44,428 nucleotides of DNA from Ardenticatenaceae bacterium (GTDB taxonomy: Bacteria > Chloroflexota > Anaerolineae > Promineifilales > Promineifilaceae): the NCBI GenBank assembly GCA_020634415.1, contig JACKBT010000037.1:1-44428 (forward strand), in the 5' to 3' direction. Shown here piece by piece: positions 15,135 through 18,851 of this stretch. Positions within the stretch are counted from its first letter, which is position 1. The number at the start of each line of letters is the position of its first letter. The position numbers and the translations under genes were made by a program. The notes below the pieces were generated by a model. The model was given only the letters and a program-made list of their open reading frames with translations. It was not told the origin of the DNA and made no database searches.

Positions 15135-15188
15135 TGTAGAACGATTTTGCAAATCGTTCTCTGGGCGATTTGCAAAATCGCCCTACAA
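15135..15188. repeat. Dispersed palindromic repeat, copy A
   Basis: Two neighbouring palindromic units: GAACGATTTTGCAAATCGTTC and GGGCGATTTGCAAAATCGCCC, bounded by TGTAG and CTACA. The same element with small differences recurs at 18239-18290. It lies in the gap between the RodZ-like gene and rimO. Confidence 0.7.
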
Positions 15189-16733: not shown

Positions 16734-16871
16734 TGTGAAATTTCTCCGTCTATAAGTTTCGCAGCAGGAAATATTAACAAATGTGGCCGTTTTTGACAAA
16801 CGCACTATGTGTGCGCACCCAGTAAGTGGTAAACGGTTGTGTAATTGCTTTTTTCGCCAAATAATAGAGCC

Positions 16872-18008
16872 ATGAACCATCCATTCCCCCTTTCAACTGA
16901 TGATCCGCTGGGTGTTCGCGCTGATTTTCCTGTGACGGCGGAGGCCATTTACCTGGCCTCGCCTTTTATTACGCCTTCGCCGCGAACGGCCGTTCACGCC
17001 GCCCAACAATTTGCTGCCGCCAAAGGCCATCTGCCCTATGACCTGGAGGAGATGCTGGCTACAGCCGATGTACTGCGCCGCCAGTATGCCAGGCTCATCA
17101 ACGCCAAAACGGCCGAAATCGGCCTGCTCTACACCACCAGCGAAGCCGAAAATATGGTCGCTGCGGCCCTGAATTTGCAGCCGGGCGAGAATATCGTCAT
17201 CAACGAACTGCATTACTACGCCAGCTTCGTCATCTATGAGCAGTGGGCCAGGCGGGGTGTGGAGATTCGGGTTGTGCCCAGTGTGGCCGGGGCTGCTCCG
17301 CCCGCCAGTTTTGCGCCATTGGTGGATAACAAGACTCGCCTGATTTCGGTGGCCTGGATTTCTCATCAAAATGGCTGTCGGCATGATCTGGCGGCTTTAG
17401 CGGAATTGGCTCATGCGCAGGGGGCGTATCTTTATGCGGATGTGATTCAGGGGGTGGGATCGCTGCCGCTGGATGTGCGGGCAGCGGGCCTGGATTTTTG
17501 TGCGGCGGGCAGTTACAAATGGCTGTTGGGGGGCTTTGGGGTGGCTCCTTTTTATGTGCGTGAAGTGCTGCTGCCGATGATTGAGCCGCATGGTTATGGC
17601 CTGTTTCATGTGGCCGAGAAGTTGGGGCCGTTGGCGCATCGTGTTTATGAAGACGGCCGTAAATTTATGTATGCTACTCCCAGCTTTGGTGCTATCTACC
17701 AGCTTTCGGCTGGCTTAGAGTATCTGCTGAACATTGGTGTGGCGAATATTGCTGCGCATGTGCTGCCGCTGGCGCACCATTTGTGTGATTCGCTGGCGGC
17801 TATGGGCTATGGGGTGGTAACACCAGCCGGGAATGATGCGGCGGTGGTGGCTTTTAAGCATGGGCGGGATGCGGCTGAATTGAAGCAGTTGTTGGCGGCG
17901 GCGGGTATCCATGTGACTTTCCGCGAAAATGACAGCCAGATTCGGGTGGGGGTGGCTCTGTTTAACAATCGTGCTGAGGTTGATCGGTTTCTGGAGGTGA
18001 TGGGATGA
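16872..18008 (+). CDS. Aminotransferase class V-fold PLP-dependent enzyme
   Basis: A protein of 378 residues from the ATG at 16872. GLLYTTSEAENMVAAAL matches the phosphate-binding region. The Asp and Gln that contact PLP lie in LYADVIQGVGSLPLDV. The Schiff-base lysine is in GSYKWLLGGFGVAPFYV. This is the pattern of the cysteine desulfurase/isopenicillin-N-epimerase/kynureninase branch. There is no desulfurase active-site Cys loop that I can see, so IscS-like sulfur transfer is less likely than an epimerase or lyase role. The substrate is unknown. The ribosome binding site is weak (AGAG). Confidence 0.82.
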   Translation: MNHPFPLSTDDPLGVRADFPVTAEAIYLASPFITPSPRTAVHAAQQFAAAKGHLPYDLEEMLATADVLRRQYARLINAKTAEIGLLYTTSEAENMVAAALNLQPGENIVINELHYYASFVIYEQWARRGVEIRVVPSVAGAAPPASFAPLVDNKTRLISVAWISHQNGCRHDLAALAELAHAQGAYLYADVIQGVGSLPLDVRAAGLDFCAAGSYKWLLGGFGVAPFYVREVLLPMIEPHGYGLFHVAEKLGPLAHRVYEDGRKFMYATPSFGAIYQLSAGLEYLLNIGVANIAAHVLPLAHHLCDSLAAMGYGVVTPAGNDAAVVAFKHGRDAAELKQLLAAAGIHVTFRENDSQIRVGVALFNNRAEVDRFLEVMG

Positions 18009-18209: not shown

Positions 18210-18306
18210 TCAGTAGATCGAAACAGATACGAGTGTGTTGTGGGGCGATTTTGTAAATCGTCTGAGCGATTTGCAAAATCGCCCCACAAGGATTTCGATC
18301 TACTGA
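18210..18306. repeat. Nested palindromic element, copy B of the dispersed repeat
   Basis: The inner part (18239-18290) is the second copy of the element at 15135-15188. Around it, TCAGTAGATCGAAA at 18210-18223 is matched in exact inverse by TTTCGATCTACTGA at 18293-18306, giving 14-bp outer arms that copy A lacks. It lies just before the ribosome binding site of the DUF411 gene. The rest of the gap 18009-18209 holds no gene I can support. Confidence 0.7.
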
Positions 18307-18331
18307 TTGTGGTGAAACAGATAAGGAGAGA

Positions 18332-18811
18332 ATGACACAGATGTTTAGACGATTTTTGATTTGGCTGCTGCTGCCGCTTTTGCTATTGGCTTGCTCAACT
18401 GCGGAAGATGAGGCAGTGGATGTGGCGGCAAACGGCCGTCTTGTCACTGTTTTTGCCTCACCCACCTGAGGCTGCTGTGGCGATTGGATAGCTTACATGG
18501 AAGAGAATGGGTTTCGTGTTGAGGTGAAAAATATACAGAACCTGGCCGACATCAAGGCCCATTACGATATTCCAGCCCAGCTCCAATCTTGCCATACAGC
18601 CATCGTGGATGGTTATATTATTGAAGGGCATGTTTCTGTAGCGGAAATTGAACGGTTATTGGCCGAACGGCCGGCTGTGGCGGGGTTGGCTGTGCCGGGA
18701 ATGCCGCCTGGTTCACCGGGGATGGAGGTGGAGGGGGTGACGGCCCCGTATGATGTGTTTACGTTTGATGCGGCGGGGAATACGGCCGTTTACGCCAGCT
18801 ACGACGGATAA
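18332..18811 (+). CDS. DUF411 metal-binding lipoprotein, candidate selenoprotein (in-frame UGA)
   Basis: Reading through a TGA at codon 46 gives one 159-residue protein. It has a lipoprotein signal (LLPLLLLAC, lipid Cys21), then FASPT-UGA-GCCGDWIAYMEENGF, then the DUF411 body with QLQSCHTAIVDGYIIEGHV, MPPGSPGM and YDVFTFD. DUF411 proteins normally read SPTCGCC at this place, so the UGA replaces the first Cys of the CGCC motif. AAGGAG five bases before the ATG at 18332 makes that start compelling, whereas the ORF after the TGA (from 18497) lacks the motif and any signal peptide. UGA is a normal stop here (the dehydrogenase ends with TGA). Alternatives are a nonsense mutation or a sequencing error; frame and conserved residues on both sides are otherwise intact. 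DUF411 proteins are linked to copper handling. Confidence 0.75.
18467..18469 (+). other. Putative selenocysteine codon (UGA) with possible bSECIS just downstream
   Basis: TGA is followed by a short potential stem-loop: GCTGT pairs with ATAGC (one G-T pair) around a nine-base loop that begins GG, starting five bases after the codon. Bacterial SECIS hairpins lie just 3' of the UGA and carry a G near the start of the loop, but this one is closer than in E. coli fdhF and its stem is short. I regard the hairpin as suggestive only. Confidence 0.5.
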
Positions 18812-18819
18812 CAGGCAGT

Positions 18820-18851
18820 GTGTGTGTCGTGCCCGCGGGCACGACACACAC
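18820..18851. terminator. 32-bp perfect palindrome between convergent genes
   Basis: GTGTGTGTCGTGCCCG is followed directly by its exact complement, with no spacer. It lies between the ends of the DUF411 and kimA genes and is a likely two-way terminator or cruciform. The centre GCCCGCGGGC is very GC-rich. Confidence 0.7.

Follow-up and report, generated by a model that had tools for sequence, protein, structure and literature searches.

Analysis of contig JACKBT010000037.1 of an Ardenticatenaceae bacterium (assembly GCA_020634415.1; 44,428 nucleotides, the whole stretch being called the window here) led to a gene at 18332-18811 whose product is very probably a selenoprotein, namely a selenocysteine (Sec)-containing form of the CopG/DUF411 family. 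We put the probability of this reading, which is based on sequence comparison, at about 0.92. The frame consists of 45 codons, a TGA at 18467-18469, 113 further codons and a terminal TAA, with the TGA replacing the codon of the first motif cysteine, and related genes of other bacteria likewise have TGA at this column. The features of the gene are:

18323-18328, + strand: ribosome binding site AAGGAG, with the ATG 3 nt further on (from the sequence)
18332-18811, + strand: DUF411/CopG-like lipoprotein gene with a single UGA read through; 159 residues, putative Sec46, stop codon TAA (PF04214, E 4.9e-25)
18332-18394, + strand: lipoprotein signal peptide with lipobox LLAC, Cys21 at 18392-18394 (from the sequence)
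18467-18469, + strand: in-frame TGA, putative Sec46, position 1 of the CxCC motif (from the comparison of TGA and Cys codons in the column)
18469-18494, + strand: expected site of a selenocysteine insertion sequence (SECIS); weak predicted hairpin, here no better than chance (z +0.73)
18473-18478, + strand: Cys48-Cys49, the remainder of the UxCC motif (Cys-Cys kept in 51/51 UGA genes)
18590-18592, + strand: Cys87 of a CHT motif (CHT in 51/51 UGA genes and 95/97 Cys genes)
18701-18724, + strand: Met124-x6-Met131 (M-x6-M pattern in 51/51 UGA genes)

The original prediction, made from the letters of the window, described a ribosome binding site, a lipoprotein signal, an intact DUF411 domain and a frame undamaged beyond the TGA. 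All four were recovered: the first two as listed, the domain as a PF04214 match that scores 87.5 bits (cut-off 27) after read-through, and the frame as the 113 codons up to the TAA. A loose lipobox pattern is present 5' of the UGA in 27/51 UGA genes. NCBIfam release 20.0 gave no match to the read-through protein at E 0.001.

UGA at a cysteine column of the DUF411 family

A first scan of the genome collection gave 253 relatives, of which the best 80 were retained; in these the column of codon 46 contained 19 TGA, 45 TGC and 16 TGT codons. Further genome searches, which read through stops, covered phylum, class or order samples of G003, G019, G014 and G017; the group names used below (Chloroflexota, Desulfuromonadales, Rokubacteria, Betaproteobacteria) are the database record labels of the first-scan loci. 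The phylum of G003, sampled with 400 genomes, gave seven genomes with a match, three of them with TGA. The class of G003 (396 genomes) yielded 47 genomes with a match: TGA stands in 21 and Cys in 22, and the remaining 4 are broken or too weak for the codon to be read. Locus L221, whose frame breaks at the column (codon GCA), and three genomes matching only weakly and in part do not enter the class count. For the order of the betaproteobacterial G019 the figures were 68 matches in 200 genomes, 4 with TGA, while every match found in the class of G014 (Desulfuromonadales record; 6/146 genomes) and in that of G017 (Rokubacteria record; 10/95 genomes) has TGA. A tblastn search also found DUF411 in 3452 plasmid records, every one with less than 60% identity.

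Removal of duplicates reduced 161 matches to 148 distinct genes, of which 51 (the window gene counted in) carry TGA, 65 TGC and 32 TGT; no other codon, and neither TAA nor TAG, occurs at the column. The prediction that the TGA falls exactly where the family has cysteine (SPT-U-GCC) is borne out by the Cys-type relatives, and the alignment of homologues that had been proposed as a check shows UGA in 50 further genes, the remaining 97 having a Cys codon (TGC or TGT). The recurrence likewise agrees with the earlier statement that a random nonsense mutation would not be expected to hit just this codon. Some UGA genes sit on long contigs, for example L011 on a 4.5 Mb chromosome record, G387:C1 near 2.8 Mb and G422:C2 near 1.0 Mb, and errors on short contigs are therefore not their cause. 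A pseudogene, in which a Cys-type gene has been broken by a nonsense mutation or appears broken through a sequencing error, would explain a lone stop codon under the standard code, but because TGA stands at one column in 51/148 genes and the others have only TGC or TGT, a stray mutation is excluded as the source, and with the downstream codons under selection as well (see below) this explanation is refuted for the family and has next to no probability left. One contig deserves mention here: L009 (JAAENL010000473.1) is labelled Halieaceae (Gammaproteobacteria), but its DUF411 gene groups with those of Chloroflexota, and it is possibly mis-binned; it was included in the Chloroflexota group for the hairpin and later group comparisons.

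The sequence beyond the TGA is coding. Altogether 5780 codons can be read beyond it in the 51 genes, with the terminal stop reached in 50 and one gene running off its contig, and the ratio of nonsynonymous to synonymous substitution (dN/dS) of this part ranges from 0.08 to 0.49 in 12 of 15 gene pairs (dS was not computable for 3). The post-TGA codons are thus under purifying selection. Gene callers place the start at an internal Met (18497 in the window), and if the UGA terminated translation the functional product could be the short protein made from there; a public protein set indeed contains versions of 104-107 amino acids starting at the equivalent Met, six among the 120 matches listed, of which one (85% identity) is encoded on a contig of 1.26 Mb. 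Such a product would be devoid of the signal peptide, the first strand and the Cys-Cys pair. Moreover, the GCC directly after the TGA and the Trp six codons on, both located before the internal Met, are kept in 51/51 UGA genes, a conservation that an independent short protein begun at that Met would leave unexplained. We consider this explanation very improbable.

In a tree of 148 rows and 123 columns the U/C label requires 9 changes, as compared to a mean of 42.6 for shuffled labels. The UGA genes sit in three places, namely a clade of betaproteobacterial members, another of rokubacterial members and a cluster in which Chloroflexota and Desulfuromonadales are mixed. This distribution suggests several origins of the UGA form; these are suggested rather than established because the starred branches of the tree force only one U/C change.

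Selenocysteine machinery and the RNA after the UGA

Searches for the selenocysteine machinery covered 50 of the 80 first-scan loci, namely all 19 with TGA and 31 of the 61 with Cys. In the 19 TGA genomes a tRNA-Sec above 60 bits was found in 14, SelB over the cut-off in 17, SelA in 17 and SelD over the cut-off in 16; the corresponding numbers for the 31 Cys genomes are 6 for tRNA-Sec, 6 for SelB and 7 for SelA. The tRNA was counted only above 60 bits (20 genomes); the Rfam cut-off alone was passed by 28/50. ARAGORN identified a tRNA-Sec with anticodon TCA in 20/23 loci, the other three, which were the best of the lower-scoring hits at 47-51 bits, being tRNA-Ser. The poorest case is G001, in which SelB is present only as a 58-residue fragment at a contig end and SelD has an in-frame TGA. 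The SelD gene itself contains one in-frame TGA in 24/25 fetched loci (L188-L211).

A second set of genomes was compared by SelA, which is encoded in 30/31 TGA genomes, 19/21 Chloroflexota Cys genomes and 6/23 Cys genomes of the betaproteobacterial order; with both sets pooled the proportions are 47/50 for TGA and 32/75 for Cys genomes. The contrast in Sec machinery between the UGA and Cys forms arises outside Chloroflexota, and as a marker of the UGA form within that phylum SelA fails, being common with both forms. The UGA might also be read as an ordinary amino acid, for instance by a near-cognate or altered tRNA, an idea that would fit the Chloroflexota UGA genes, in which a SECIS signal is not demonstrable. 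Against it stand the tRNA-Sec(UCA) with SelA and SelB in most UGA genomes tested, and the use of UGA as a true stop, which terminates 19/51 UGA genes and 5/22 window frames of at least 250 codons (frames that are not all genes). Translation as an ordinary residue is hence as improbable in our estimate as the short protein.

A hairpin with nine potential pairs is present in the UGA genes of Betaproteobacteria (5) and Rokubacteria (10); it starts 12 nt past the TGA, and its apex lies at 22-24 nt. The 42 nt after the TGA fold better than synonymous-codon shuffles, with a mean z of -1.83 in the betaproteobacterial and -1.53 in the rokubacterial genes (p 5e-4 and p 1e-4, respectively, against the 97 Cys genes). 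In this hairpin 88.9% of the cells are paired, versus 57.1% in 14 Cys genes hand-picked from the 97 as betaproteobacterial; 8/500 shuffles reach the number of cells paired and 6/500 that of cells changed on both sides. One pair shows a two-sided change in 4 genes (G-C to A-U), and the number of pairs with such a change (2) is not above that in shuffles (181/500 reach it). Four of the five betaproteobacterial UGA genes (L061, L142, L143, L147) have GCG (Ala) after GCCG, a position at which 63/97 Cys genes encode Asp or Lys. The GCG change gives three bases of the betaproteobacterial hairpin stem, and because it supplies these bases, the protein sequence may have been changed here by the demands of the RNA element.

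Other measures gave no separation of the Chloroflexota UGA genes from controls. Dinucleotide shuffles separated the 51 TGA from the 97 Cys genes with p 0.05 for z and p 0.13 for energy, and of 14 sliding windows with start points up to 81 nt past the codon in Chloroflexota one gave p 0.013, uncorrected. A best-hairpin score with loop rules did not separate the Chloroflexota UGA genes from controls, a measure of low power in view of a mean z of -0.30 for 15 SelD genes of the same clade and p 0.12 for the betaproteobacterial/rokubacterial set. A hand-drawn bulged hairpin for Chloroflexota was rejected, since its 81.1% of cells paired rose to 83.3% when it was slid by two columns, and a switch from TGC to TGT in the post-UGA codons was discarded as a signal because 27 Chloroflexota Cys genes show the same. 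What remains as a leftover hint is GGC at codon +4, found in 27/30 Chloroflexota-type UGA genes as compared to 6/13 Gly codons in Cys genes, a difference confounded by ancestry.

Relation to CopG and the case for copper

The window protein has the DUF411/CopG motif layout, U46xC48C49 with M124x6M131, and a structure model built with Cys at position 46 has the CopG fold, which is glutaredoxin/thioredoxin-like. The Met pair provides copper ligands in CopG according to PMC8456105 and PMC7558416, and the spacing of Met124-x6-Met131 is identical to that of M120-x6-M127 in CutG. The protein differs from CopG of Pseudomonas aeruginosa (PDB 6wis, 6wje; DUF411, PF04214) in having putative Sec for the first motif Cys and a lipobox. 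Among the selenoproteins in Table 1 of PMC13188914, the SO_0444 family Cu/Zn efflux transporter (UxC form) and CopZ-like (2Fe-2S) proteins are copper-related, and the transporter shares the UxC spacing, but the window protein belongs to another family, DUF411. Similar to the thioredoxin-like selenoproteins of the same table (UxxC, UxC), it combines a thioredoxin-like fold with Sec at motif position 1, whereas the UxCC motif and the distal Met pair correspond to the layout of a metal site rather than a plain redox motif.

A copper role of the putative Sec-containing protein is, in our estimate, somewhat likelier than its absence. A ribosome with SelB and Sec-tRNA(UCA) would insert selenocysteine at UGA codon 46, after which the product would be exported, lipidated at Cys21 and anchored at the membrane's outer side, where its thioredoxin-like fold would display the U-x-C-C motif together with the Met-x6-Met pair. 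By analogy to CopG the site may bind copper and move electrons, copper or both in the handling of Cu(I)/Cu(II). Compared to Cys, a selenolate ligand would be softer, have greater acidity and be easier to re-reduce, which may be its advantage. More tentatively, and with odds that we place slightly below even, Sec46 could act as a bridge between copper ions of a multinuclear cluster of the CopG type, making this a copper site of natural origin whose selenolate ligand is genetically encoded, with Sec having arisen repeatedly in the betaproteobacterial, rokubacterial and Chloroflexota/Desulfuromonadales clades.

Several results weigh against the reading of the gene as a Sec-containing CopG homolog. 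The original prediction included a stem-loop after the TGA, and this part did not hold: the 48 nt from the TGA of the window gene fold with -6.1 kcal/mol (z +0.73), no stronger than chance, with 153/200 shuffles equalling or surpassing it. The 30 Chloroflexota-type and 6 Desulfuromonadales-type UGA genes show no SECIS signal above synonymous shuffles, and RNAalifold gave no consensus hairpin for the 30 Chloroflexota-type genes (-0.16 kcal/mol). By the 42-nt measure 15 Chloroflexota SelD genes have a mean z of about -0.8 versus -0.32 for the DUF411 genes, so a signal might have been expected in the latter; the missing signal tells mildly against an ordinary SECIS there, and this contrast lowered our confidence in a selenoprotein from 0.93 to 0.92. 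In Chloroflexota, SelA is about equally common with the Cys form (19/21), and the machinery does not discriminate there. As to copper, comparison of the window gene's neighbours to Pfam revealed no recognisable copper gene, and none recurs beside the UGA genes in neighbourhoods read by eye (Pfam was run on the window neighbours only, and some recurrent clusters that were shadow frames of the DUF411 gene were ignored). PMC8456105 reports that Rhodobacter CutG has no major role in Cu detoxification and that CutO activity was not significantly changed when Cys was replaced by Ala in the CxCC motif of CutG.

The protein could instead be an extracytoplasmic selenol-thiol oxidoreductase acting on another substrate, which would be compatible with its being a selenoprotein. 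The fold, the resemblance of U-x-C to redox motifs and the lack of copper neighbours, recognised at the window gene or recurring at UGA genes, all speak for this function; the UxCC motif with the distal Met pair speaks for a metal site, and we regard the non-copper alternative as rather unlikely.

Surroundings of the gene and meaning for the family

Directly upstream of the DUF411 gene the window encodes a class V aminotransferase (16845-18008; PF00266, 6e-41). The class V aminotransferase fold includes cysteine desulfurases and selenocysteine lyases. A nested palindromic element at 18210-18306, just upstream of the gene, has 23-nt arms (96% complementary, 6 nt apart) within perfect outer arms of 14 nt. 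Its core pattern (at most 3 mismatches) matches the window five times versus 0.14 expected, twice in the element and three times at 15138-15184, and the element looks like a small dispersed repeat. On the other side of the gene lies:

18820-18851, no strand assigned: perfect 16-bp inverted repeat directly 3' of the gene, with convergent genes on its two sides; it resembles a terminator (a run of T was not seen)

No RNA gene was found anywhere in the window, either by ARAGORN or by Rfam at gathering scores.

The original prediction regarded DUF411 as not established among selenoprotein families, in agreement with a May 2026 inventory of 119 families/subfamilies (PMC13188914), which has no entry for DUF411, PF04214 or COG3019 in its Table 1. 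A search of one literature collection for DUF411 with selenoprotein found no paper that pairs them (RefSeq/GenBank annotation lay beyond its scope), and one for CopG with selenoprotein gave no bacterial title among the matches listed. Within that collection, PF04214, COG3019 or DUF411 is mentioned together with selenocysteine only in PMC3305326, where the co-mention is unrelated and coincidental. Gene callers shorten such genes, as the six shortened versions among the 120 matches listed illustrate. If the reading proposed here is correct, the bacterial selenoproteome would gain a family, and selenium would be linked to copper handling outside the cytoplasm. Since the structure of CopG has been solved, the Cys and Sec forms could be compared directly for what selenium gains at a metal site.
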